Below, piece after piece: positions 9,601 through 26,003 of a stretch of DNA of 64,000 bases. The notes under the pieces were generated by a model. It was not told the origin of the DNA. It did no database searches and saw only the letters and a list, made by a program, of their open reading frames with translations. Origin of the DNA: Cryomorphaceae bacterium (GTDB lineage: Bacteria; Bacteroidota; Bacteroidia; Flavobacteriales_D; Parvicellaceae); assembly GCA_905182525.1 (NCBI GenBank), contig CAJJBV010000004.1:320068-384067 (forward strand), given 5' to 3'. The position numbers and the translations under genes are program-made. Position 1 is the first letter of the stretch; every line of letters begins with the position of its first letter.

Positions 9601-10649
9601 CTGGATGCCTAGATACTGTAGTGAAAATAATTAATATTAATCCTATCCCATATCCTAATTTTACTTTTACAAATGCTTGTTATGGTTCTGCTACTCAGTT
9701 TGCTAATAATTCTTTAATTTCTTCAACAGACTCTATTTCTTCTTATTTGTGGGATTTTGGTGATGGACAAAATTCCATTGTTAAAAATCCATCTCACTTA
9801 TATTTAAATGAAGGTGTATTTAATGTGGGACTGTCAGTAACTTCCAGTGACGGTTGTTCAAATGACACTTTAATTTTTGTAGTTGTAAACCCGTTTCCTG
9901 TTGCAAACTTCACTTTTTTAGAAGCTTGTATTAATCAAGATTTAATTTTCACTAATCAGTCTTTAATTAGCGGCGGTAGTCCACTCACTTTTAGTTGGGA
10001 ATTTGGAGATGGTCAAACTTCTTCAATAGAAAACCCTATAAATATTTATAATAGTTCTGGTATTAAAACTGTGAAATTGATTAGTTCATCAAGTTTTGGT
10101 TGTAAAGACTCTATTGAAAAAACTGTTGAAGTTTTTCCTTTACCAACTGTTTTTGCAGGTAAAGACACTTCAGTTAGTAAGGGTTACTCTGTACAATTAT
10201 TAGCTTTTATTTCTGGTGGTATTAATTTTAATTGGAGTCCATTAGTGGGGTTAAATAACAATACTATTTTTAATCCTGAAGCGTCCCCGACTTTGACTAC
10301 AGATTATATTCTAGAAGTTACAGATTTTAATGGTTGTATAAATAGTGATACTTTAAATATTGAAGTGATTAATGATTTCAAGCTTTTTGTAAATAACATA
10401 GTTACACCTAATGGAAATGGTGAAAATGACACATGGTATGTTGAAAATATAGAATCATTATCTACAGCTAGAGTTTATATTTACAATCGTAGAGGAACTG
10501 AGATCTACTATGACGATAATTATAAAAATGATTGGAATGGATATTTAAATGATGATGAATTACCTGATGGAACCTACTATTATATTATAAATTTCACTGA
10601 TAGTGATAAAGTATATAGAGGTGCAATAACATTACTAAGAAATAAATAA
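6603..10649 (+). CDS. Giant DUF2341/PKD-repeat surface protein with type B (CHU_C) T9SS sorting domain
   Basis: This 1,348-residue protein begins at a TTG two bases after the previous stop, and the signal peptide ends at VAFAQP. Residues about 30-120 match DUF2341 (WNYRQEIKFNNPS and FWVKMDS), followed by a lectin-like sandwich and Ig-like loops. From about residue 640 to 1150 there are seven PKD modules, seen as WNFGSG, YDFGDG, WNFGDG twice, WDFGDG twice and WEFGDG. The last 90 residues form a CHU_C/type B sorting domain: TPNGNGENDTW, YIYNRRGTEIY, WNGY and PDGTYYYII. Type B cargo such as SprB relies on a PorP/SprF-type outer-membrane partner, and one is encoded immediately downstream with a one-base TAATG overlap. 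The protein is inferred to be a SprB-like or ChiA-like surface adhesin. Confidence 0.85.
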   Translation: MKRILKYYFSLLTIILISSTVAFAQPCKYGWNYRQEIKFNNPSSTLLSDFQVEFVLPTASLVSNSKAQINGSDIRIVDFDGNDLNFWIDDDTYNTSSTSFWVKMDSLAPAGNTSVFVFYGKTGEISNSNGSATFEMFDDFNSSILSSKWSSCDSNNNNISFSNGNLILGSSFGNNASIISDSIFTDSEPVTVEMDLETISNGKLFLGIESSSSGLGMSYNAYGGNSLMELDSSSATNTALCRSTISLENFPALNVMGTWSYSKFAGDSSYLSWPGGIYPNHKESKNLLGDHRIVLSSLNQGLVNSSASIDWVRARKYSSTNITYTLESEIEVFDDIMISNTGPYCQGDEISIVATNNPSATYSWKKDGVDLPASLDSHRVVIPNATVDTGGVYSLTVQITGGCNAQTISTNVEVNSFSNGGLLKTQSSALQISGLDSSVHISNLCPLTNSDSIYLESSNGNVIYWESSLNIGGPWNNIYNSNSYYKFNSMVNSMYFRAVIQNQICPMDTSNFFKANIYPIVDAGYLIGGNNVCEGTNNGSLELTGHVGSVSKWQKSTDNSSTWLDISNNTNKLDYTNLTDTTIYRVIVNSGGCVNDTSNSQTISIYPNPVLGFSYSQVCQGSPTSFNNTSSISSGQISSYSWNFGSGLGSNVKNPLITLPFSGNHNVFLVASSNHGCTDSLRNTSVIVNSNPLANFNQSDVCDGDNMVFSNSSIGSSLSYTYDFGDGSGVYNSSNGDTVYIFPTHSNYDVKLKVQSSNGCADSITNNVNVYPRANITFIGDSVCLGQSINFINTTQTTASSISYIWNFGDGSNSGLNSPSHTYLVPGTFSVSLISSTNTGCSDSYIDTVIIYPVPNPLFTVDSICLYDSASFINTTDTILTPNLTFNWNFGDGFFSNEYSPSHLYSSNNNYNITLGVSSTDGCSSSLSKILAVSPVPTANFSFNDVCFNETAIFQNSSTPGGLNFSWDFGDGNTSIFNDPSHNYLSSGNYNVQLISSSNSGCLDTVVKIININPIPYPNFTFTNACYGSATQFANNSLISSTDSISSYLWDFGDGQNSIVKNPSHLYLNEGVFNVGLSVTSSDGCSNDTLIFVVVNPFPVANFTFLEACINQDLIFTNQSLISGGSPLTFSWEFGDGQTSSIENPINIYNSSGIKTVKLISSSSFGCKDSIEKTVEVFPLPTVFAGKDTSVSKGYSVQLLAFISGGINFNWSPLVGLNNNTIFNPEASPTLTTDYILEVTDFNGCINSDTLNIEVINDFKLFVNNIVTPNGNGENDTWYVENIESLSTARVYIYNRRGTEIYYDDNYKNDWNGYLNDDELPDGTYYYIINFTDSDKVYRGAITLLRNK

Positions 10650-12107
10650 TGAAGTTATCTAAAAAAATATTTTTTCTAATAATTTTTACTTCTTCTTTGA
10701 TTGTAAGAAGTCAGCAAATGGAATATAATTCCCATTATGTTTTTAATCCTTATTTATTAAATCCTTCAATGATTGGTGACGGAGAAAAAAACATTTTTCT
10801 TGGTTATAGAAAACAGTGGGCAGGATTTGTGGGTGCACCTGAAATACAACAAATAACTTTTGATTCTCCTTTAGAAAACAAAAAAAGTGCAATTGGATTT
10901 AGAGTTTCAAACGATATAACAAATGTAATTGGTAGAACAAGTGGTTATTTAACCTATAAGTATAAAGTAAGATTCTCAAAAGAAAGTGATTTAAGTTTTG
11001 CATTATCAGGTGGCTTTTTTCAAACTAGAATTTTGTTTGATAGAATTATTGCTTTAGATAAATTTGAATCTGTACTATTTGAAAGTAATCAAAAATATAC
11101 AGGTTTTGATGCTGATTTTGCTTTTAACTACAGGTATAAAAAGTTTGTAATTGGAGCTTTAGCAAAAAACATACTTCAGAACACAGTTGTTTACTTTAAC
11201 GATAACGATACAAAAGACCTTAATTATAGTTTTATTCGTCAATACAATGTTCATGCTCATTACAACTTCTCCTTAAAGAGCGACAATTTTCATATTACAC
11301 CAATATTTTTATTACAAAGTGTTCAAGGAATTCCTTTTAATTATGAAGGAAACGTTTTATTGGATTATAGAAATAAATACTTTTTCAACTTAAATTACTC
11401 TCATAAAAATAGTGCTGGAGTCTCAGCCAGCGTTTTATTTGATAACTCCATTCAAATCTCTTATACTTATGAAATTCCTACTAATTCTTTGCTCAATTAT
11501 AGTTTCACTTCTCAGGAAATCTCAATAAAATTTCTTTTGCGTAAAAATCAAGATTTTTCTAAACTTAAAGAGATTGAGGATTTAAAAAATCAAAATAATT
11601 CTTTGTTTGAAAAAACAGATTTTATTGAACAAAAACAACTAAAACTTGATTTGGAAATCCAGAAAAACAGAGACAGTATAAATTCTTTAAAGGATAGTCT
11701 TAATAGTATTGTTTACGGCCTAGAAAGAGTAATAAATAATTTAAAATACGATAGTAAAGATTTAGATTCACTAATTAAAAAGGCTACTGAAAGTATAAAA
11801 AATGATTCAACAGTTAAAAATATATATAATAACGAAGATGAAATATCAAGTCCGGATACTAAAGAAGTTATATAATTTAATAATTGGTGCTTTTAAAGAT
11901 TTTGATAATGCTAATGAGTATAAAAAAATATTTGTTAGAGAGTATAATATCTCTCCTAAAATAATAAGAAATAAAAATGAATCATGGTATTTTTTGTGTG
12001 ATGAATCCTCTAATAATATGAACAAACTTTTAAAAAGGACAAAAGAACTTGAAAATTTAGATGAGAAAAAAATAATTTTTGGTAGACCTTGGATATATTT
12101 CGAATAA
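10649..12107 (+). CDS. PorP/SprF family outer-membrane protein with coiled coil and SPOR-like tail (frameshift near 11875)
   Basis: The ATG at 10649 overlaps the stop of the type B cargo gene by one base. Residues 1-290 are a PorP/SprF beta-barrel: signal peptide, then NPYLLNPSMIGDG and YRKQWAGFVGAPEIQ, the family hallmark. Residues about 295-400 are charged and helical (KLKEIEDLKNQNN, then NRDSINSLKDSLNS), predicted as coiled coil. The frame stops at 11875, but the next frame continues without a gap as NLIIGAFKDFDNANEYKK, ESWYFLCDES and PWIYFE, a SPOR-like fold. One missing base in the AT-rich GTTATATAATTT joins them into about 485 residues. PorP/SprF proteins are T9SS partners for type B cargo. 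A peptidoglycan-binding SPOR extension would tether the barrel to the cell wall (inference). Confidence 0.8.
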
Positions 12108-14169: not shown

Positions 14170-14730
14170 ATGAAATGGATTGGAAATAGAATCTCTTACC
14201 AACAACACGATGGTTTCTTTACTATGATAATTACTTCAAAAACTGAAGATTGGAAAATGATTGCTATGATTGTTTGGCTTATAATATGGTTAGGATGTGG
14301 AAGTATAATTTTTTACTTTTTGTTATTTACCAATGAACTTAAAACTCAACACATTTATTTTTATACTTTCTTAGGCTTTTGGTTTTATTTTCTTTACAAA
14401 ATTTTGAGGGTAATTATTTGGAGAAAATTTGGTCAAGAGTTTATTAGAATTGATGATGATAGATTTTCTATTAAAAAATCAATTTTTGGATATGGAAGTG
14501 CTAAAACTTTTTTGACAAAAAACATTAATAACTTCAAAATACAACTGCTTAAAAACAATTCTTTTTCTAAAGTATTTAATGATTCGTTTTGGATAGTTGG
14601 TCAAGGAACTATTATTGTAGATGTCCTTGGAAAGGAATATAATTTTGGAGCTCAAGTTTCTAAAGAGAATGGTCAAAAAGCAGCTAAAATTCTAAACTTA
14701 AAAATCAATAAAATTAAATCAGCTAGTTAA
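14170..14730 (+). CDS. Hypothetical membrane protein with PH-like soluble domain
   Basis: This 186-residue protein has two hydrophobic segments (about residues 38-60, MIAMIVWLIIWLGCGSIIFY; about 68-85, YFYTFLGFWFYFLYKI). A soluble C-terminal half follows with alternating strands (EFIRIDDDRFSIKKSIFGYG and FGAQVSKENGQ), resembling bacterial PH/YcxB-like membrane proteins. No active-site motif is seen. Its 3' end overlaps the convergent CoA-transferase gene by 12 bases. The name is a structural impression only. Confidence 0.65.
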   Translation: MKWIGNRISYQQHDGFFTMIITSKTEDWKMIAMIVWLIIWLGCGSIIFYFLLFTNELKTQHIYFYTFLGFWFYFLYKILRVIIWRKFGQEFIRIDDDRFSIKKSIFGYGSAKTFLTKNINNFKIQLLKNNSFSKVFNDSFWIVGQGTIIVDVLGKEYNFGAQVSKENGQKAAKILNLKINKIKSAS

Positions 14731-15774
14731 ATTAAATGCTACGGTTTTAATTCTTTTCGTTAACTGGTTGTTTATTTTTTCTTCTAAAACCATTTCTTTT
14801 GCTAGTTTGCTTTCTAGTACTTTTTTAATACTATTAATTTCTCCAATAGGTATATTTTTCTTTAAACAAGATGAAAGTAAATATTGAGAAGAAATACTTT
14901 TAATTTTTTCCTTTAAAGCATCTAGTAACTCTATTCTTTTTTTTACTCTTTTCGGATTTGTTTTAAATTTCTTAACAATACTAATATCAAGAGAAATTAT
15001 TTTTGAAAAATTCTCGAATTGATGATCAGTTCCAATTGCTAAGATTAATTCTTTATTGTCAATAGTTGTTACAATTTCACCGTATGGAGCAATGTTTGGA
15101 TGTAATGTTCCCATTGGTTTGCTCTGGTGATTTGCCATTAAATAATTTGAGGATTGATTCATTAATGAAGCGATAGCAGTTTCTTCTAGTGTTGTTGAAA
15201 CTTTATAAGGTTTCTTTTCTTGATTCTGTAAAATTAAAGCAGTTAAAATCCCTTCTTTAATTTGATGAGCAGCTAACACATCAATAAATGCAACTGGCAT
15301 TTTAGCATATTCTTTGTTATTTCCAGTCATACTTATATATCCAGTTTCTGCTTGCAATACAATATCATATGCTACTCTTTTAGTATTGCTTTTAAATCCT
15401 GTAATTTGCGCATAAATAATATGGTCATTTATTTTTTTACAACTCTTAAAATCTAGCTTAAATTTTTTTTCATCTCCACTTTTAAAGTTTGTAATAATTA
15501 TATCACATGATTTTATTAATTTATCTAACTCTTTGCGATCAATTTCACTATTAAAATCTAAAAATACATGTGTTTTTTTATAATTTACAGAACTAAAATA
15601 TGCTGACAATTCGTTTTCTTTTTCAATAGGAAGTTTCCAATTTCTAGTTACATCTCCACCTGTTAATTTATTTTCCACTTTCAATACACTCGCGCCGAGT
15701 TCTGAAAAAAACATTCCAACTGCTGGTCCAGCCAAAACACTTGATAATTCTAATACTTTTAAGTCCTTGAACAT
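14719..15774 (-). CDS. Class III (CaiB/BaiF-type) CoA-transferase
   Basis: This 351-residue protein starts with the family signature FKDLKVLELSSVLAGPAVG, followed by FFSELGASVLKVE and GGDVTRNWK. The family transfers CoA between carboxylic acids, or racemises alpha-methylacyl-CoA, using an aspartate; the segment MPVAFIDVLAAHQ carries the expected Asp at about residue 172. YDIVLQAETGYISMTGN is also typical. The protein is a little short for the family (usually 360-400), with a Lys-rich C-terminal region. The substrate cannot be read from the sequence. It is a single gene between a convergent partner and the divergent transporter gene. Confidence 0.85.
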   Translation of the reverse strand: MFKDLKVLELSSVLAGPAVGMFFSELGASVLKVENKLTGGDVTRNWKLPIEKENELSAYFSSVNYKKTHVFLDFNSEIDRKELDKLIKSCDIIITNFKSGDEKKFKLDFKSCKKINDHIIYAQITGFKSNTKRVAYDIVLQAETGYISMTGNNKEYAKMPVAFIDVLAAHQIKEGILTALILQNQEKKPYKVSTTLEETAIASLMNQSSNYLMANHQSKPMGTLHPNIAPYGEIVTTIDNKELILAIGTDHQFENFSKIISLDISIVKKFKTNPKRVKKRIELLDALKEKIKSISSQYLLSSCLKKNIPIGEINSIKKVLESKLAKEMVLEEKINNQLTKRIKTVAFNLTS

Positions 15775-15843: not shown

Positions 15844-18800
15844 ATGGCTAGTCAGAAAAAATTTGGAACTTTTAGTGGAGTACTAACCCCTTCTTTATTA
15901 ACAATTTTAGGGGTTATCATGTATATGCGACTTGGTAGTGTTGTTGGTAATTCATCTAGTATTTTCCAATTTATAATTATTATATTTTTTGCTCATTTAA
16001 TTTCTGTAACAACAGGACTTAGTGTTTCCTCAATCGCCACAGATAAAAAAATAGACAAAGGTGGCATATATTACATGCTTACAAGGAGTTTAGGTCTTCC
16101 AATTGGTGGAGCGATTGGTCTTACTATTTTTATAGCAACAGCATTTAGTATTTCTCTTTATCTTATTGGTTTTTCAGAAAGCTTAATACCATTTATAAAC
16201 GAACAATGGTCAGTTGGTGGTATATCGACAAATAAATTAAGGTTGTTTGGTTCTCTCGCTCTTATAGTTGTTCTTATAATAGCTTACATAAGTACAAGTT
16301 TTGCACTAAAAATTCAGTATGTCATTTTAGGATTAATTGTATTATCTATGTGTTCTATATTTATGGGATCTTCAGATGGTCTTAAAATCGGATCCGACAT
16401 TATAGAATCACCTAATTTTGCCACTCTATTCGGAATATTTTTTCCTGCAGTAACTGGATTTACTGCAGGCGTTGCTATGAGTGGGGATTTAAAAAATCCA
16501 AAAATTTCAATTCCTTGGGGAACTATGCTTTCTATTTCCATAGGATTGATTGTTTATATAATATTAGCGCTATTTATATATTATAATATTGATCGTGAAT
16601 TTTTAGTTTCAAATAATAATGTATTAATTGATTTTGGAGCGATTCCACTTTTAGTCCTAGGTGGAGTATGGGGTGCTACTTTATCATCTGCCCTGGGTGG
16701 GATTTTAGGTGGGCCTAGAATACTACAGGCAATGTCTTTAGACAATATCACTCCAAAAATATTTTCTAGGGAGTCTGGAAAAAATAAGGAGCCAAGAAAT
16801 GCTTTGTTTTTAACTTTTTTAATTGCTGAAATAGGTATTTTAATAGGGGAATTAAACGTTATAGCCGAATTAGTTGCCATGTTTTATATGGCAGCCTATC
16901 TATTTATAAATTTATCATGTTTTTTAGAACAATGGTCTAGCCCTGATTTTCGACCTAAGTTTAAAATCCCTATATGGATATCGCTTTTAGGTGCTATTTC
17001 GACATTACTTTTAATGATTCAGCTTAATTTAGCAGCAACCTTAATTGCAGTTCTTTTAATGATGGTTTTCTGGTTTTGGCTTTCTAAAAAGGACTTAGTT
17101 TTAGGAACTGGAGATGTTTGGCTTAGTGTTTGGAATACTGTTGTAAAGACAGGTTTGAAAAACCTTCAAAAAAAAGCTATTCACCAACGAAACTGGCAAC
17201 CAAATATTTTACTTTTTAGTGGTGGGACAAAAAACAGACCGCACTTAATTGATTTTGGAAAATCTATAATTGGAAGAGCTGGAATGGTATCTAACTTTGA
17301 CTTAATTGAAACTAAATCGGCCAAAGTACTATTCCCAAAATCTTCCCAGAATGTTAAGGATAGTTTTTTATTAGAGGACTCTATATTTCACAGAAAGTTG
17401 TATTGTCAAAACATTTTTAAGGGTGTAGAATCTATTGCTACTACATATGGCTTTTCTGGAATTGACCCAAACACCGTTTTAATGGGATGGGGAAGGAATA
17501 CTAAAAATCCAATATGGTTTGGTCAAATGACACAAAAACTTAAAGATTTGGATTATAATATACTTTATTTAGATTATGATAAAAATAGAGGTTTTGGAGA
17601 CTGTAGTTCCATTGATTTATGGTGGGCAGATTTTAATAAAGAAAATGAATTATCACTTCAATTAGTTAAGTTTTTAAGATCTTCAAAAAAATGGAAAAGA
17701 GCTATTTTAAATATTTATTTCGTTAACTCAAAAGATATTAATTCTGATGAAATAGAGTTTAGGATAAGTTCAATTATCGATCGTAAGAGGATGAATGCTA
17801 AATACCATGTTATTAATAATTTTTTAGATCAAAAAGACATCAATGAGTACATTAGAATTAAAAGTCATTTGTCAGATTTAATTTTAATCAAACTACCAAA
17901 TTTAAAATCTGGCAGTGAAAAGAATTTTATTAACTCATCAAATGAGTTATTTAGTCAAATAGGTTCTGCATTATTTTTAGAGGCCTCTAAAAGTTTTGAA
18001 GATTCAACCAAATCCATTCCGCAACTAAAAAAAATTAAAACTAAAAGTAATATTATTTATAAAGAAAAAATTAGTGGGTCGTTATTACCAACTTTTGATA
18101 ATTATTTTGATAACCAAACTACTTCTTGGCAAGAAAACTTAGAAAAAATAAATAAATCTTTTGTAAATGAACTACAGTCTTCCATTTTAAAATTCCAGGA
18201 ATATTATATAAATGTTTTAAATAAAAATAAATTAATTGATGAGCTAAAAATGAATCTTTATGATTCAGAAAAGGTAAAAAATATTGCCAATGATCTAGAG
18301 GCTTCGATCGTGAAAAATATTGAGGATTATTTTTATTTAATAAATAACACCCTCTCTAAATTTCCTAAAAAGTTAGATTTTAATTACTCAATAAATTTTT
18401 TAGAAAACTCAAGATTTAATCCTTCAAATCATAATAAAAAACTACTTGCTAATTTACTAAAAAATGATAATCCCGATGAAAGATTTAAAATTTCAGTTCC
18501 CATTATTAAACTTATAAAACATCACTTGAAAAATCGGTTTATAATTGATTTTAATGAAACACTTAAAATTTTTGGAAATATCCATTTAAAGTATATTAAT
18601 ATTTACAAAGACTTCATTAAACAAGGAGATACACAAAAGATTCTTCCATTTTTAGATAAAATTAATAGCGAAATATTTTCAAATATAAACCAAGAATTAA
18701 ACCATTTATCTACTAAACTCATTAATGCTATTATCATTGATCTTGGTGAAAACGATGTTAATCTTTTATCTGAGAATAGAGAAGAAGATTTTAATCCAAG

Positions 18801-20769
18801 AAGTTATAGAAAAAGATGGTCATTAGTAGAGGATTTTCCTTTTGATTTTTCTAAAAACATTTTGATTTTTCATAACTTTAAAGCGCTTTATTGTAGTTCT
18901 TTAATAGTTGAAAATATGGCTTTTAGACAGCTCGATGAATTATCAAATATGTTTAATCAAAATAATTTCGTTCAATTAGATGAAATTTTAAAATTAAGTA
19001 AAGTAAAATCAGGATTAAATAAAGCATCAATTATTAATAACTCAATTGAGCAAATTCAAAGAATATCTAGTAGCATAATAAGATCATTAGATACTACTAA
19101 TTGGTTAAATAATAATGAAGATATTTTTGATAAGATTCCCTCAGAAATTAATATTTACTTACCTGAAATCATTATTAATTTTTCAACTAAACAAGATAAC
19201 TTATTAGAGACAACTTACAATTTAAAAAGTACACTTAAGTATTTATACAACGAAAACATTATTTCACCAATTAATAAAACCTTAAGTGATTATAAAGACT
19301 GGATCAATAAAGATTTAGAAGATATAATAAGTTCCTTCAAGCTCATTGTTTTTACCATGGAAAACCAAGACGATGTACGATTAATTAAAGATTCAGTTCA
19401 GAAGTTTAAAAGTAAAATGATTGAATTTGAGAAAAATTTATCTCTTAATAAAGAGCGATTTAATTCTTTCATTAAGGATCTTAAAATTAACGCTAATAAG
19501 TTTCCAGATTACCACTATTTAATGTCTAACGAATCAAAAAAGTATACTAATTCAGTAACTCCGTTATCTTCTTCAAGTCCATCTTTTTATAAAATTCAAA
19601 ATTTCATTTCTGAAAAGTTTCTTCATTTTATTGATCTTTTGACTATTGATAATAGTTTAAATGAATCAAAATCAAAGTCTGATAAAACAATAGCCATTAG
19701 AGATTTTATTAATAAATGCACACCAAGCGAGGTCGATTTAAATAATATTCCAAAATTATATCTTCAATTATTTAGTAAAGATGCAAATCCTAATAAATTC
19801 TTTTCTGGCTTTATTACAAAGCAAATTTCCAGTTTCAAAAAAGCGATTTCAAAAAAGTTAAGTAGTAATCAAAATTTAGTTGTAATTTCTGGTGAGTCTA
19901 AATCTGGAAAAACTTATCTAATTAAAAATATAATTAAATCCCTAGATAATAAGAATTGTTATGCAATAGACCCACCGTCACATTTTTTTAAAGAACCTCT
20001 AGTTGATGAAGTTTCAAAGCTCTTACATTTAGTAAATGACACATCTTTTGACCCTCTTTATTTAGATAAATTACCAGATAACTCAGTTGTTTTTTTAAAT
20101 GACTTTGATCTTTGGTGGAGAAAGAACTCTAATGGTTATGATTTAATCAAAAGCTGGCTAGAAATATTTAAAGTTTACAATAATAAATTAATTTTTGTAA
20201 TTGAGGTTAATAATTTATTTCTAAAAAGTCTAATGATTAATACTAGTATTGAAGATTGTGTTTTAAAATTTATTTCGTCTTCCTTTTTTTTAAATAAACA
20301 ATTAGAGAATATAGTAAAACATAAAAATTCTTTGGTAGGAATCGATGTATATAATAATGGTACTAAAATTAATTTTGCAAAGTCCATTAGGTCATCTTTT
20401 AATTTTAATAAGATTCACGATTTAGTGGAAGGAAATATTGGTTGGTTTAATAATTTTTGGATTTCTTCTTTAACCCATAAAGAAAATAATAGCTTAGAAT
20501 TTTATAATGATTTTAAAACATCATTCCCCCCTATTTTTAATGATCTAGAACTTATAATATTATTGCAAATATTTTTGCATAAAAAAATTAATTTAAAACA
20601 TTTAGAAGAATATTTTTCAGGTTGGGAAGATAGTGAGATAGCTGAACATATATCTTTCTTTAAAACTGAGAAAATTTTATTTATTGACGGTAATTATGCT
20701 GAAATCAGTCCATATATACTGCCATATTTAAATAAATACTTAAAACAGAATAAACTCATATCAAATTGA
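15844..20769 (+). CDS. SLC12-type cation-chloride cotransporter fused to helical linker and P-loop NTPase
   Basis: The ATG at 15844 (MASQKKFGTFSGVL) is preferred over a TTG at 15823, giving 1,641 residues. Residues 1-430 form a cation-chloride cotransporter core with LTILGVIMYMRLG, the hallmark FFPAVTGFTAGVAMSGDLKN and GGILGGPRILQAMS. Residues about 445-730 match the SLC12 cytosolic C-domain (NWQPNILLFSGG, NTVLMGWG, SIDLWWADF). A Lys/Asn-rich helical stretch of about 600 residues follows. Residues 1350-1357 read GESKSGKT (Walker A) and 1415-1425 read VVFLNDFDLWW (Walker B-like). The last 90 residues look like a winged helix (INLKHLEEYF, then AEHISFFKTEKILFIDG). Bacterial SLC12 homologs are normally about 450-750 residues, so the STAND/AAA-like addition is unusual. 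A coupled MscS-like gene follows. NTP-dependent gating of ion transport is inference. Confidence 0.85.
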   Translation: MASQKKFGTFSGVLTPSLLTILGVIMYMRLGSVVGNSSSIFQFIIIIFFAHLISVTTGLSVSSIATDKKIDKGGIYYMLTRSLGLPIGGAIGLTIFIATAFSISLYLIGFSESLIPFINEQWSVGGISTNKLRLFGSLALIVVLIIAYISTSFALKIQYVILGLIVLSMCSIFMGSSDGLKIGSDIIESPNFATLFGIFFPAVTGFTAGVAMSGDLKNPKISIPWGTMLSISIGLIVYIILALFIYYNIDREFLVSNNNVLIDFGAIPLLVLGGVWGATLSSALGGILGGPRILQAMSLDNITPKIFSRESGKNKEPRNALFLTFLIAEIGILIGELNVIAELVAMFYMAAYLFINLSCFLEQWSSPDFRPKFKIPIWISLLGAISTLLLMIQLNLAATLIAVLLMMVFWFWLSKKDLVLGTGDVWLSVWNTVVKTGLKNLQKKAIHQRNWQPNILLFSGGTKNRPHLIDFGKSIIGRAGMVSNFDLIETKSAKVLFPKSSQNVKDSFLLEDSIFHRKLYCQNIFKGVESIATTYGFSGIDPNTVLMGWGRNTKNPIWFGQMTQKLKDLDYNILYLDYDKNRGFGDCSSIDLWWADFNKENELSLQLVKFLRSSKKWKRAILNIYFVNSKDINSDEIEFRISSIIDRKRMNAKYHVINNFLDQKDINEYIRIKSHLSDLILIKLPNLKSGSEKNFINSSNELFSQIGSALFLEASKSFEDSTKSIPQLKKIKTKSNIIYKEKISGSLLPTFDNYFDNQTTSWQENLEKINKSFVNELQSSILKFQEYYINVLNKNKLIDELKMNLYDSEKVKNIANDLEASIVKNIEDYFYLINNTLSKFPKKLDFNYSINFLENSRFNPSNHNKKLLANLLKNDNPDERFKISVPIIKLIKHHLKNRFIIDFNETLKIFGNIHLKYINIYKDFIKQGDTQKILPFLDKINSEIFSNINQELNHLSTKLINAIIIDLGENDVNLLSENREEDFNPRSYRKRWSLVEDFPFDFSKNILIFHNFKALYCSSLIVENMAFRQLDELSNMFNQNNFVQLDEILKLSKVKSGLNKASIINNSIEQIQRISSSIIRSLDTTNWLNNNEDIFDKIPSEINIYLPEIIINFSTKQDNLLETTYNLKSTLKYLYNENIISPINKTLSDYKDWINKDLEDIISSFKLIVFTMENQDDVRLIKDSVQKFKSKMIEFEKNLSLNKERFNSFIKDLKINANKFPDYHYLMSNESKKYTNSVTPLSSSSPSFYKIQNFISEKFLHFIDLLTIDNSLNESKSKSDKTIAIRDFINKCTPSEVDLNNIPKLYLQLFSKDANPNKFFSGFITKQISSFKKAISKKLSSNQNLVVISGESKSGKTYLIKNIIKSLDNKNCYAIDPPSHFFKEPLVDEVSKLLHLVNDTSFDPLYLDKLPDNSVVFLNDFDLWWRKNSNGYDLIKSWLEIFKVYNNKLIFVIEVNNLFLKSLMINTSIEDCVLKFISSSFFLNKQLENIVKHKNSLVGIDVYNNGTKINFAKSIRSSFNFNKIHDLVEGNIGWFNNFWISSLTHKENNSLEFYNDFKTSFPPIFNDLELIILLQIFLHKKINLKHLEEYFSGWEDSEIAEHISFFKTEKILFIDGNYAEISPYILPYLNKYLKQNKLISN

Positions 20770-21479: not shown

Positions 21480-22565
21480 ATGGGAAATACTTTTGGAACT
21501 ATATATAAGCTTACTTCTTATGGGGAATCTCATGGCCCTATGATTGGTGGTGTTATTGAAGGATGTCCCTCAGGTTTAAAAATAGATTTTAATGCTATTC
21601 AACATGATCTTGATAGAAGAAAACCTGGACAAAGTAAAGTCACTACAGACAGAAAAGAATTAGATATTGTCGAATTTGTTTCTGGTATTTATAATGGAGA
21701 ATCAACTGGAGCTCCTATAAATTTTATCATTAAAAATAAAGATGCTAAAAGTAAAGACTATTCAGACATGGAAACTGTATTTAGACCTTCACATGCTGAT
21801 TATTCTTATCATGAAAAATATGGAAATAGAGATCATAGAGGTGGAGGCAGGTCATCTGCAAGAGAAACAGCTAATAGAGTTGTTGCTGGATCAATAGCTA
21901 AACAAATTCTCGCTCATTATAAAATTGATATTTTTGCCTATGTTAGTTCTGTAGGTGAAATAGTCACGGAATTCGATAAAAACTTGAGCAATCAAGAATT
22001 AAGAGCTATTTCTGAATCAAATATAGTAAGGTGTCCAGATGAAACAATTGCTAATAAAATGATTTCATTTATTGAATCTATTAAAAGTAATGGAGATTCT
22101 GTAGGTGGTCAAATATTTTGCACTATTTCTGGTGCACCCGCTGGATTAGGAGCTCCTGTTTTTGACAGGTTACATGCTGATCTGGGTAAGGCTATGTTAT
22201 CTATTAATGCTGTTAAAGGATTTGAATATGGATCTGGATTTGAAGGTACTAAAATGCTTGGGTCACAACATAACGATGAGTTTTTTAATGACAAAGGTAA
22301 TTTACGTACCAAATCAAATTTTTCTGGTGGTATTCAAGGTGGTATTTCGAATGGCGAAGAAATATATTTTAAAGTTGCTTTTAAACCCGTTGCTACTATT
22401 CTATCTTCTCAAAATACTGTAAATGAATCTGGCGATAATGTAATTTTAAAAGCTAAGGGAAGGCATGATCCTTGTGTTGTACCTAGGGCTGTTCCAATTG
22501 TTGAAGCTATGGCAGCCTTAGTAATTGTAGATCATTTATTGTTGAACAGAACAGTTAAATTATGA
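21480..22565 (+). CDS. aroC: Chorismate synthase
   Basis: This 361-residue enzyme converts 5-enolpyruvylshikimate-3-phosphate to chorismate, the last common step of aromatic amino acid synthesis, using reduced FMN. The signatures are present: [18 protein letters not shown] at the N-terminus, [37 protein letters not shown], and [14 protein letters not shown] near the end. The length matches the family. The stop overlaps the start of the next symporter gene as ATGA. No other shikimate gene is present in the window. Confidence 0.97.
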
Positions 22566-23983
22566 AATCAAAAAATAAAAATTTAGCACTTCATTGGCAA
22601 GTGATTATTGGACTTGTATTAGGTGGGGTTTATGCCTGGTTTGCAGTTGCCAATAATTGGATTCATTTCACTATGGATTACATCAATCCATTTGGAAATA
22701 TATTTATCAATCTATTGAAAATGATAGCCGTTCCATTGGTTTTATTTTCTATTATTTCAGGAATAATTTCACTTAAAGACATTACTCAACTTGGAAGAAT
22801 GGGTATTAAAACGCTTTGCTTATATCTTGTGACAACCTTATTTTCTGTTTCTTTAGGATTAGTTTATGTAAATATTGTTAAGCCTGGAGAAAATCAATCT
22901 CTTGAAATAAGAACCGAAAAAAGAATTGAGTATGAAATTTGGCTTTCTGAAAACCCTCATGTTGAAAGAGTTGATGATATTAATTTTTTGTCCGACCCTA
23001 ATTTTTCTGAAAAAATTGCCGAAGTAAGAGCTCGCATTAAAGGGGAAGAAATTACTGGATGGGTGGCTGATAAGGTAAATAAGAGAGCTAAGGAAAAAAC
23101 AAAGGGACCTTTAAGTGCATTAGAAGATGTGTTTTCTTCCAACATATTTAGATCCTTAACAGATAGTAAAATGTTACAAATAATTTTCTTTGGAATACTA
23201 TTTGGTGCAGTATTGTCAATGATTCCTAAAGAAAAAGCAAAACCTGTAATGGATTTAGTTGAAGGTTTAAATGAGGTTTTTGTAAAAATGGTAATGGTTA
23301 TTATGAAAGCAATGCCATTTTTTGTTTTTGCATTAATGGCTGGTCAAATTGTAAAAGCAGCTGGAAGTGACCCAGATAAGTTTACAGAACTAATGAAATT
23401 TTATCTATGGTATGGAGGAGTCGTTATAGCGGGATTAGTAACAATGGCTTTCATCTTTTATCCAATTATTGTTAAGATTTTTACTGGATTAGGGTTTAGA
23501 AAGTTTTTAAGAAGTGTAAAAGATGCTCAAATTACTGCCTTTAGTACAAGTTCATCAGTTGCAACATTACCTGTTACTATGGGTTGTTTAGAAAATAATT
23601 TAAAAGTATCTAAGTCTACAACTAGCTTTGTTCTTCCGATTGGAGCAACAGTAAATATGGATGGAACTAGTTTATACCAAGGTATTGCAGTTGTTGCATT
23701 GGCACAATTTCACATGGTTGATTTATCTATTCTTCAACAGCTTATTATTGTAGGTACTGCAACGTTAGCATCAATAGGTGCAGCAGCAATACCAAGTGCT
23801 GGTTTAATATTAATGATGGTCGTTTTAGAATCCGTAGGATTGAACCCCTTATGGATTGCTATTATTTTTCCTATTGATAGAATTCTAGATATGTGTAGAA
23901 CTGTAGTTAATGTTACCGGAGATGCTTCTGTAGCAGCAATTATAGCTTATTCTGAAAATGAAATCAATTCAGTTGATGACTAA
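22562..23983 (+). CDS. Dicarboxylate/amino acid:cation symporter (DAACS/SLC1 family)
   Basis: This 473-residue inner-membrane symporter imports C4-dicarboxylates or acidic amino acids with Na+ or H+. It shows the family core: [20 protein letters not shown] (serine-rich HP1), [14 protein letters not shown] (TM7 NMDGT motif), [13 protein letters not shown] (HP2) and [15 protein letters not shown] (TM8). A charged insertion of about 70 residues (residues 118-190, containing [11 protein letters not shown]) lies between early helices. It overlaps aroC by four bases and the following OmpA gene by eight bases, so all three are probably translated from one message although their functions are unrelated. 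Confidence 0.93.
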
Positions 23984-26003
23984 TAAAAACATAATTACAA
24001 TATTTCTATTACTAATTAATTCCTTTTTTTTTGGTCAAATTAATGAATGTGACGATCAAGTACCATCGTCAATAGAGAAACTTTATCTAAAAGGAAAAAA
24101 TTATAAAAAGTACGATTACAAAAACAGGTTAAAATTTCTTAAAGACGCTATTGAAATTGAAGAGGAAAATATTCCCTGCATATTTGAATTAGCTAAAACA
24201 TCATTTAGAAGAAAATATGGAAACGGAGGCTCAATGGAATTACCTAAAAAATATTTTCTTCAAATCGAGACTCTTTGTTCATCATATCATGCCGATATTT
24301 TTTATTATTTAAGTTTAATATATTACATGGATAAAGATGACTGTAAAGCAGTTGAATATTTTAAAAAATTTTTAGAATTCTCATCTGAGAATAAAAATAG
24401 TTTTTCTTCCAATTATCTTTTTCAAAAAAAAAATATTGAAGAATTATTTAAAATGTCAAAATATTTTTGTGATTTTTATTCTAATCCAGTTCCTTTCGAT
24501 CCTAAAATAGTTAGAAATATATCTACTGCAGAAAGAAACGAAATACTCCCTGTTATTTCACCTGACAATGAGCATATTTATTATACAATTGAATTCGATG
24601 AATATATAAAAGGAGATATATCCGTTCATCACGAACAGTTATTTGCATGTGGAAGTAGAAATAGTTTTAATGAGGACTTTAATATTGGAAAACCATTAAA
24701 AGAACCTTTTAACGTGGGACCAAAATATGGAGGAGCATCTATGTCTGTAAATAATAAAGAAATGTACATATGTGCTTGCATAAATAATGGCGGTTATTTT
24801 AATTGTGATATTTATGTCACAAAAAAACAGCTTAAGGAAATATCAATACTTAAAGAAGGAGTGAAGTTTGATACTGCTTTTTATGTTTGGTCTCCATTAA
24901 TTAATTTAGGTCCAAATATAAATGGTTCTCAAACTTGGGAGGGCCAGCCATCATTATCTGGAGATGGTAATACGTTATTTTTTTCATCGGCTAGACCAGG
25001 AGGTTTTGGTAAAACTGACATCTATTATTCTGTTAAAAATGAAGATGGTACTTGGCAAAAAGCAATAAATATTGGAGAATCAATAAATACTTCAAAAAGT
25101 GATAAATCTCCTTTTATTCATACAGATAGTAAAACTTTATATTTTTCTTCAGAATCTTCAGATATTAGGTGGGGTGCTGGTGGTTTTGATATTTTTTTTA
25201 CAAAACAAGATTTAGAAACCAAAAAATGGAATCAACCTAAAAATATAGGTTTTCCTATTAATAGTGATCAAGATGAGGAATCACTTATTGTTAGTCTTGA
25301 TGGTCATTTTGGATATTTTTCTTCGAATAGAGAAAATGGATTAGGTGGTAAGGATATTTTTTATTTTGAAATTCCAGAAAAAGCAAAGCCAGATAAAATT
25401 GTTCTAGTAAAAGGAAATGCAACTTTAGATGATAATACTAAAATAGTTCTTGTAGATAATAATGGAAATAAAAAAGAACAAGCCTATAATTTGGATGACG
25501 AAGGAAAATTTGTGGCTATTGTTAATGTAGAATCTATTAAAGGAGATGCTCTTTTGAAAGTAGAAAGTAAAGATGGGGTATTTGAATCAATTGTTATTTC
25601 TCAAGAAGATATTAAATCTACTGTGGTTAAAAACAAAATAATAGAGAATAAAAAAATTGAAAAAGGAAAGCCATATACTCTTAACGATATAATGTTTGAA
25701 TCAAATTCATCCTCAATTAAGGCGTCATCAAAAATAGTTCTGGATGAATTTGCAGACTGGCTAAAAAAGAAAAATAGTATAAATATTGAAATCCAAGGTC
25801 ATACGGATGATCAAGGTTCTGAAAAAGAAAATTTAGCATTATCTATTGATAGAGCATTTAGTGTAATGGAGTACTTATTAAATAAAGGAATTGATAAAAA
25901 AAGATTAAAATTCACAGGTTTTGGTGAATCAAAGCCAAAAGTGTCAAATAAATCAAGTATGTTAAGATCTATTAATAGAAGAACAGATTTTTTAATATTT
26001 TAG
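23976..26003 (+). CDS. PorE-like OmpA-family protein with TPR and PD40 propeller repeats
   Basis: The ATG at 23976 ([20 protein letters not shown]) places the signal peptide at the start; an upstream ATG at 23958 would add six residues inside the symporter gene. The protein has about 675 residues. Residues 20-165 contain TPR-like helices. About residues 185-470 hold PD40 propeller repeats (SGDGNTLFFSSARPGGFGK, SKTLYFSSES, GYFSSNRENGLGGKDIF). A short strand-rich domain follows, then a C-terminal OmpA peptidoglycan-binding domain (YTLNDIMFESNSSSIK, IEIQGHTDDQGS, SINRRTDFLIF). This TPR-propeller-OmpA order is that of PorE, a T9SS component linking the outer membrane to peptidoglycan. Whether this is the functional PorE or a paralog cannot be told here. 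Confidence 0.8.
   Translation: MTNKNIITIFLLLINSFFFGQINECDDQVPSSIEKLYLKGKNYKKYDYKNRLKFLKDAIEIEEENIPCIFELAKTSFRRKYGNGGSMELPKKYFLQIETLCSSYHADIFYYLSLIYYMDKDDCKAVEYFKKFLEFSSENKNSFSSNYLFQKKNIEELFKMSKYFCDFYSNPVPFDPKIVRNISTAERNEILPVISPDNEHIYYTIEFDEYIKGDISVHHEQLFACGSRNSFNEDFNIGKPLKEPFNVGPKYGGASMSVNNKEMYICACINNGGYFNCDIYVTKKQLKEISILKEGVKFDTAFYVWSPLINLGPNINGSQTWEGQPSLSGDGNTLFFSSARPGGFGKTDIYYSVKNEDGTWQKAINIGESINTSKSDKSPFIHTDSKTLYFSSESSDIRWGAGGFDIFFTKQDLETKKWNQPKNIGFPINSDQDEESLIVSLDGHFGYFSSNRENGLGGKDIFYFEIPEKAKPDKIVLVKGNATLDDNTKIVLVDNNGNKKEQAYNLDDEGKFVAIVNVESIKGDALLKVESKDGVFESIVISQEDIKSTVVKNKIIENKKIEKGKPYTLNDIMFESNSSSIKASSKIVLDEFADWLKKKNSINIEIQGHTDDQGSEKENLALSIDRAFSVMEYLLNKGIDKKRLKFTGFGESKPKVSNKSSMLRSINRRTDFLIF

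Follow-up and report, generated by a model that had tools for sequence, protein, structure and literature searches.

We identified a candidate two-gene osmoregulatory unit in a 64,000-nucleotide stretch (the window) of a Cryomorphaceae bacterium genome (contig CAJJBV010000004.1, positions 320,068 to 384,067). Its first gene encodes P0001, in which an SLC12-type cation-chloride cotransporter (CCC) is fused through a helical rod to a P-loop NTPase and a winged helix. Its second gene encodes P0002, a divergent MscS-type mechanosensitive-channel protein. The original prediction had taken the first gene alone and overlooked this partner, which makes up the other half of the unit. The interpretation we favor, and hold to be somewhat probable, is that the fused cation transporter is coupled to an MscS-like tension sensor through a nucleotide switch. 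All parts identified come from known superfamilies; what is new is the assembled system. We found no description of this fusion or of an NTPase–MscS pair in the open-access literature, an absence that extends to open-access texts only and is weak evidence. The only prokaryotic CCC mentioned in the accessible portion of PMC4301019 is an archaeal Methanosarcina protein, and the accessible portion of PMC10219603, a paper on salinity adaptation, mentions no cotransporter.

The fusion gene is a single stop-free frame, as originally described, running from an ATG at position 15844 to a stop at 20769 (1,641 aa). Residues 3–552 matched the K-Cl cotransporter model TIGR00930 (E 3.9e-108; 362.9 bits, with a full-length cut-off of 953.4). 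SLC12 chains in the PDB (SLC12A5, A7 and A2) were matched at E 1.3e-69 to 1e-66, with the best stretch at 159–674 and an N-terminal part at 6–176. The KCC2 and KCC4 matches extend to residues 667–674, and the SLC12 cytosolic domain is kept in an alignment of relatives (45 rows: 44 relatives and the window protein). Block identity to the window protein in that alignment was 0.51–0.81 over the first 600 residues and 0.15–0.27 past residue 750. Outside the transporter part, Pfam and NCBIfam annotate little in these proteins except weak P-loop matches. P0001 thus shares a homologous transmembrane core and cytosolic domain with the SLC12 CCCs (NKCC1/SLC12A2, KCC4/SLC12A7) but differs from them in having ∼900 more residues (rod, AAA+-type NTPase and winged helix) and an MscS partner gene.

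The available part of PMC7035313 assigns the K+ site of NKCC1 to Asn298, Ile299, Tyr383, Pro496 and Thr499 and the Na+ site to Leu297, Trp300, Ala610, Ser613 and Ser614; N298 contributes a main-chain oxygen, and the Na+ site is made of main-chain oxygens and two serine hydroxyls. Alignment to human NKCC1 placed T20, I21, Y106, P201 and T204 of the window protein at the K+ site and L19, L22, A278, S281 and S282 at the Na+ site. Eight of the 10 residues are identical, including the Na+-site serines (S281/S282 for S613/S614) and the residues at the Tyr383, Pro496 and Thr499 positions. The two changes, N298 to T20 and W300 to L22, are found in all 30 aligned fused proteins, across which all 10 positions are invariant. 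This conservation leads us to expect, from the cation sites alone, that the fused transporter is NKCC-like and coupled to Na+.

An AlphaFold model of residues 725–1641 (mean predicted local distance difference test score [pLDDT] 81.6; predicted template modeling score [pTM] 0.50) comprised long helices, an AAA+-type domain and a winged helix, the last with predicted helices and strands at 843–911 of this C-region model. The helical linker of about 600 residues that had been proposed was recovered as helices in the model, with a length closer to 550, and the winged-helix-like end was recovered as well. Foldseek returned RuvB as the best match to the C-region model (E 2.2e-5), followed by Orc/Cdc6 and TnsC, while VIA-align matched it to the NSF chain 6mdn_B (NSF D2; Z 14.0, 3.5 Å over 215 residues) and to Aeropyrum ORC2 (Z 13.8, 5.9 Å over 309 residues). 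These matches group the domain with AAA+ proteins. At the sequence level, the P-loop region had only a weak match to Pfam AAA_22, below threshold (E 2.2e-4; 22.0 bits against a cut-off of 27), and a profile of 39 relatives picked up a Cdc6 homolog (E 7.5e-5). Taken together, the P-loop domain is predicted to have an AAA+-type fold. We treated as noise the Cas9-like and ribosomal S2-like matches (E 0.27–0.93) in the linker or cytosolic domain.

The Walker A and Walker B-like motifs lie where the original prediction had placed them (Table 1). We counted motifs in 87 module proteins (47 SLC12 fusions, 33 unfused modules and seven others, described below). The canonical Walker B (hhhhDE) was found in none of the 87 (0/47 SLC12 fusions), which refines the original description and is why we speak of an AAA+-type fold and assign it to no named AAA+ clade. 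The STAND GxP lid motif was mostly missing, being present in six of 87 (2/47 SLC12 fusions, 4/33 unfused, 0/7 others), and membership of STAND is not established. The Walker A lysine is present in 44/47 SLC12 fusions, 23/33 unfused modules and 7/7 others. A non-canonical Walker B with an occasional loss of the lysine is easier to reconcile with a switch that responds to nucleotide than with a processive motor. The domain resembles Orc/Cdc6-, RuvB- and STAND-like NTPases in having an AAA+-type core followed by a winged helix, and differs from them in its non-canonical Walker B, the general absence of GxP, the long rod in front and the fusion to a transporter.

Searching within the window's phylum, we found the same rod–NTPase module on other proteins. 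It is fused to a CPA2 Na+(K+)/H+ exchanger in at least six loci (∼1,500 aa each), identified by PF00999 in L080, L096, L123 and L124 (E 1.2e-18 to 3.7e-21) and by a profile of those four in L081 and L125 (E 5e-71 and 2.9e-74). In a further locus (L117) it is fused to a ∼380-residue membrane domain (∼1,465 aa in total) that had no match to PF00999 or to the CPA2 profile; L117 and L080 align over rod and NTPase from residue 388 on (E 6e-51). Unfused modules occur in at least 33 loci, with lengths of ∼930–1,060 aa, or ∼430–466 aa in two genera. Profile comparison showed that rod and NTPase are alignable among the SLC12-fused, CPA2-fused and unfused forms, and the rod of the SLC12 form alone matched the unfused form at E 4e-11 and the CPA2 linker at E 4e-9 (hhalign). 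Reversed-sequence decoys gave probabilities of 0.2%–3.8% and E 0.011 or weaker, with the exception of the unfused linker, which matched its own reversal at 70.5% (E 3.9e-5), indicating that coiled-coil composition inflates linker scores. We rejected composition as the source of the linker homology, since the real comparisons (E 4e-11 to 4e-9) beat the decoys. In a tree of the module (22 of the 47 SLC12 fusions used; L086, which is short, left out), the SLC12-linked modules group together (100/100), as do the six CPA2-linked modules (99/95). The Kef-type CPA2 antiporters are therefore a second transporter family bearing the module, not detectably related to SLC12 in the searches made, and this re-use provides independent support for switch-gated transport. 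The original prediction of gating by a STAND- or AAA-type switch accordingly retains its fusion and its AAA+-type fold, gains from the CPA2 re-use and still gives the best interpretation, although its STAND half is not established. KefC and KefB are known to be regulated through NAD-binding domains and glutathione, not by an AAA+ module.

The surroundings of these other modules have features of their own. TrkH was detected by Pfam in 5/5 tested CPA2-type loci (L080, L081, L117, L123 and L124) and TrkA in 3/3. A five-gene run (a ∼414–422 aa membrane protein, the CPA2–rod–NTPase fusion, an MscS gene, a TrkH-type gene and a TrkA-type gene) recurs in L080, L081, L096, L123, L124 and L125, with Pfam support for TrkH in L080, L081, L123 and L124 and for TrkA in L080 and L123. 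Such a run has the appearance of a complete unit for handling potassium. The L117 fusion also adjoins TrkH and TrkA genes (L117 5292–13272) and is possibly a third transporter type carrying the module. The short form of ∼440–466 aa, found in genus g135 and in G439 (g141), consists of NTPase and winged helix without the rod. Such rod-less frames occur in L086, G424, G436, G439, G450, G461, G496 and G559, and an MscS gene still follows in L086, the only one of them for which the locus was fetched. Two more small multi-transmembrane genes lie near an unfused NTPase–MscS pair at L083 4782–6766 (minus strand).

P0002 is a divergent MscS-type protein. Its model (pLDDT 85.9) has transmembrane helices with a broken third helix, a beta domain and an alpha/beta domain. 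All 50 Foldseek matches listed were MscS-family proteins, headed by YnaI-MscS and MscS (E 6.8e-11, TMq 0.47). The best VIA match had Z 12.6 (5.5 Å over 154 residues), and the first 46 matches in its list were MscS-family structures, including 3udc and 3t9n (Z 12.6 to 7.8), ahead of an unrelated one at Z 7.5. Among the corresponding neighbors in other loci, 44/57 individually matched the Pfam MscS beta-domain (MS_channel_2nd). A profile of 37 partner neighbors retrieved E. coli MscS and YnaI (E 2.1e-14), and the same set aligned to the MscS proteins beside CPA2-fused and unfused modules with 99.6% probability (hhalign, E 4e-24). Against a profile restricted to SLC12-linked partners of other clades, P0002 itself scored E 1.6e-23. 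A profile built from the CPA2-linked and unfused-linked MscS proteins recognized 39/47 SLC12-linked neighbors at E 1e-3 or better.

A same-strand MscS-type gene adjoins the module in 94 of the 96 loci examined (SLC12 fusions 54/56, CPA2 fusions 6/6, L117 1/1, unfused modules 33/33). These counts cover loci fetched with the NTPase end and its flank; G003, G011 and G029 lie outside the judgement. The check on SLC12-linked partners is partly circular, as many of them helped to build the profile used (A6). Restricted to loci never used for profile building (L097–L126, L030, L031, L043, L129 and L133–L137), adjacency held in 37/39, with L119 and L120 assessed by eye and L030 from a fragment of 40 residues where its contig ends. 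L067, which ends early (1,569 aa), was excluded from A3 and A6; L042 duplicates L024 (one genome), and L081 and L125 are near-identical. The MscS gene is mostly downstream, with an overlap or gap of a few bases, and is upstream in five GC-rich unfused loci (L118–L122). We count this variation in gene order with retained adjacency in favor of a link between MscS protein and module. The window's genome holds two other Pfam-detectable MscS genes in 2.19 Mb, so that chance adjacency would be ∼0.1% per neighbor on a gene-density estimate. The partner is likewise absent from all five family genomes that lack the fusion (G004, G006, G008, G017 and G025). The partner search was also without a match in eight more family genomes (G003, G011, G019, G020, G024, G029, G033 and G034), of which G019, G020 and G024 have a divergent neighbor (L020, L022 and L038) and G034 has a partner matched by another profile (L133).

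The pore helix separates fused from unfused systems. We counted glycine plus alanine (G+A) in the TM3a part of the third transmembrane helix for 37 SLC12-linked partners, six CPA2-linked partners, that of L117 and 33 unfused partners. A G+A fraction of at least 0.25 was found in 33/33 unfused partners (mean 0.36) versus 1/44 fused partners (mean 0.15 for the 37 SLC12-linked and 0.13 for the seven others). P0002, at 0.22, shares the predicted fold of MscS-family channels (E. coli MscS and YnaI), with their broken third helix, but lacks their Gly/Ala-rich pore pattern and is encoded beside an NTPase. Two canonical MscS paralogs in the window's genome have TM3a fractions of about 0.50 and 0.39 (hand count). 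To our knowledge, no NTPase or transporter fusion exists for MSL10 of Arabidopsis, a plant protein. It nonetheless offers a precedent for a non-conducting role of an MscS-like protein, in that its cell-death signaling is independent of channel function, according to the available part of PMC6261518.

In the mechanism we favor, the first gene would supply an NKCC-like, Na+-coupled cotransporter extended at its C terminus by a cytosolic rod and an AAA+-type nucleotide switch, and the second an MscS-family membrane protein. The MscS-like protein would sense membrane tension or turgor, and its state would be relayed to the NTPase via the rod. The nucleotide-dependent conformation of the NTPase would then turn the fused cotransporter up or down, so that salt transport tracks turgor. 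We infer that P0001 and P0002 touch and that the switch works by binding nucleotide, and likewise in which direction control runs and what the substrate is. The most speculative steps are that in unfused systems the MscS pore itself may be the output, and that in fused systems the output may have shifted to the transporter while the pore decayed. A broader version, which we put forward tentatively and regard as possible rather than probable, is a general mechano-osmotic module in which the AAA+-type switch reads an MscS-family protein and commands the cation transporter joined to it, with the MscS protein of fused systems acting as a pore-less, pure tension sensor.

The unfused loci can also be taken the other way. 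The main task of the NTPase would then be to gate the MscS-like protein, here a true channel serving as a release valve under ATP control, with the transporter as a refilling arm or membrane anchor. Unfused modules without a transporter adjoin MscS proteins with the canonical glycine/alanine-rich pore helix, which means that the primitive pair may be an NTPase and a channel. We nevertheless judge the release valve unlikely, given that the glycine/alanine pattern has been lost from the pore helix in 43/44 fused systems examined and that the cation-site positions of the transporter are invariant.

Two further roles for the NTPase strike us as improbable, and to a similar degree. One is a membrane-anchored signaling or transcription device, with the transporter and the MscS protein as ion and tension receptors and the winged helix acting on DNA or another partner. 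The C-terminal winged helix is there in the model and DNA-binding Orc/Cdc6 and TnsC are among the structural neighbors, but a winged helix is a usual companion of Orc/Cdc6- and STAND-type domains, and a pure receptor might not need fully conserved cation-site positions. The other is an AAA+-type quality-control or assembly factor that folds, assembles or extracts the transporter and MscS oligomers; the resemblance to the AAA+ domains of NSF and ClpC that suggests it is set against the lack of a canonical Walker B in all 87 proteins and of any evident reason for these transporters to need such a factor. An anti-phage (abortive-infection) system, in which a STAND-like guard opens an MscS pore on phage attack, is the least credible explanation, and by a wide measure improbable: an NTPase with a pore is a known defense layout, but a PADLOC scan of six proteins gave only weak mad8 matches in the P-loop region (P0001 E 1e-3, L080 E 1.9e-4) and one weak LeoA match, with no match in 4/6 (including P0002 and two unfused NTPases), and the gene is found in nine genera of the family, often with a similar CoA-transferase-like frame upstream, unlike defense islands.

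Several results weigh against a mechanosensing two-gene switch. At the level of P0002, a Pfam scan of the protein itself gave no match, the profile of MscS proteins linked to CPA2-fused and unfused modules gave it E 0.52, and a reversed control of that profile search returned 2/47 matches at E 0.05 or better. The SLC12-linked and the CPA2-linked modules each make up a single group in the tree, so that phylogeny confounds the loss of the pore pattern, which may represent only one or two events; the CPA2 sample is small (six loci, two near-identical). The Walker A lysine is lost in 3/47 SLC12 fusions (L025, L039 and L040) and in 10/33 unfused modules, suggesting that some members may work without nucleotide, whose use certain lineages seem to have abandoned. 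No MscS gene was found beside the SLC12 fusions of G032 (L031) and G033 (L043), two genomes of the same genus in which other frames lie downstream, and both fusions have the degenerate P-loop GERLCGAT; a fragment of an MscS gene was found at the end of a different contig in G032. The partner and the P-loop may tend to be lost jointly. Finally, G006 (97% complete) and G004 (92%), two fairly complete genomes of the window's genus, live without the unit. The P-loops in which the lysine is replaced (e.g., GCMGSGYSS, GEHHSGMS and GERLCGAT) are natural variants and belong to full-length or nearly full-length SLC12–NTPase fusions (L025, L031, L039, L040 and L043; L039 and L040 are from genus g9).

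The fusion of transporter and NTPase is old. Within the genus, full-length orthologs (63%–71% identity) are present in six other genomes, and in a seventh (G003) Ns sit at the frame break. The fusion was matched in 35/39 genomes and 9/9 genera of the family, a tally that includes matches in G008 (E 4e-4 and 1e-3) that we judged spurious, as they fall in long open reading frames taken to be unrelated to the fusion. Five of the 39 lack it (G004, G006, G008, G017 and G025), three of them being 62%–82% complete. Across the order, an SLC12 match within an open frame of at least 1,500 aa was found in at least 49/399 genomes from five families. The fused frames measure 1,637–1,706 aa with the same SLC12 match, apart from two of the 49 (1,534 and 1,570 aa), and such similar lengths across the order indicate that the fusion is not due to chance. 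In the phylum sample, the full fusion occurs in at least 3/394 genomes besides the window's own (G632, G466 and G615). Genome-wide searches scored only two, or at most four, candidates per genome, making these tallies lower bounds. The P-loop glycine column is occupied in 20/20 loci taken from other families of the order. We could rule out an assembly artifact or read-through fusion by recurrence in many assemblies and by the Ns at the G003 break, and a chance P-loop by the fold model and conservation.

Breaks and losses are few. If the two parts lay in separate genes in close relatives, the claim of a fusion would fail; instead, 54/56 SLC12–module loci have a frame unbroken as far as the contig extends, and only among distant NTPases do we see free-standing genes beside MscS. 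The two broken cases are G013 (L129), where the transporter frame ends in the rod and a second frame holds the rod end, NTPase and MscS together, and G030 (L030), where the NTPase sits in a separate overlapping frame. Other members of both genera are intact, which points to indel errors or recent splits. The second frame of L129 (4129–6249, plus strand; 707 residues, rod end, NTPase and MscS-like, apart from the transporter frame) reflects either sequencing indels or a natural NTPase–MscS fusion. In a transporter tree of 26 fused and seven free SLC12 sequences, the free genes L092, L093 and L094 fall inside the fused clade, and neither an NTPase nor an MscS gene was found in the ∼18 kb fetched around each. 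If the root is set by the free outgroups, this nesting suggests two or more losses of the module.

The usual means of controlling secondary transporters are small regulatory domains, phosphorylation and partner proteins, and we know of no precedent for control of these transporters by an AAA+-type NTPase. The placement of such an NTPase on two cation-transporter families, nearly always beside an MscS gene, points to an undescribed tie between membrane tension and ion transport and to a possible role of MscS-family proteins as sensors rather than pores. It also suggests a function for proteins with little Pfam or NCBIfam annotation outside the transporter part. With its two genes, the unit is a genetically simple system in which to study turgor sensing by cells. 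Animal CCCs are controlled by kinases (WNK–SPAK). If the broader version of our interpretation is true, the module would be a bacterial counterpart to the control of Na-K-Cl cotransporters by volume-sensing kinases in animals, with wholly different components.

Table 1. Features of the two-gene unit, in window coordinates
Feature	Position	Strand	Basis or remark
SLC12 cotransporter–helical linker–AAA+-type NTPase (predicted)–winged-helix fusion (P0001), 1,641 aa	15844..20769	+	Open reading frame, profile, structure, orthologs
SLC12 transmembrane core, residues 1–440	15844..17163	+	Alignments to SLC12A2 chains
SLC12 cytosolic C-terminal domain, residues 441–722	17164..18009	+	Profile and PDB matches, 45-row alignment
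Helical linker/rod, residues 740–1285	18061..19698	+	Predicted helices, linker-only hhalign
Predicted AAA+-type P-loop NTPase domain, residues 1290–1560	19711..20523	+	Pfam, AlphaFold model, Foldseek/VIA
Walker A GESKSGKT, residues 1350–1357	19891..19914	+	Sequence, motif alignment
Walker B-like VVFLNDFDLWW, residues 1415–1425, non-canonical versus hhhhDE	20086..20118	+	Sequence, motif count
C-terminal winged-helix-like domain, residues 1561–1641	20524..20766	+	Predicted secondary structure, alignment
MscS-type mechanosensitive-channel protein (P0002), 224 aa	20766..21440	+	Starts with a TTG that overlaps the fusion's TGA stop (TTGA)
MscS TM3a/TM3b helices, residues 69–100 of P0002	20970..21065	+	TM3b "KNLFLG" kept

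Just upstream of the fusion, the window has a divergently oriented gene of CoA-transferase family III (14719–15774, minus strand), and similar divergent CoA-transferase-like frames hold that spot in many family members. A sodium:dicarboxylate symporter lies two genes downstream of the MscS-like gene (22562–23983). Together with a PorP/SprF-type IX secretion protein (10649–11875) and an OmpA/PD40 protein (23958–26003) elsewhere in the window, the symporter is in keeping with a Bacteroidota genome.

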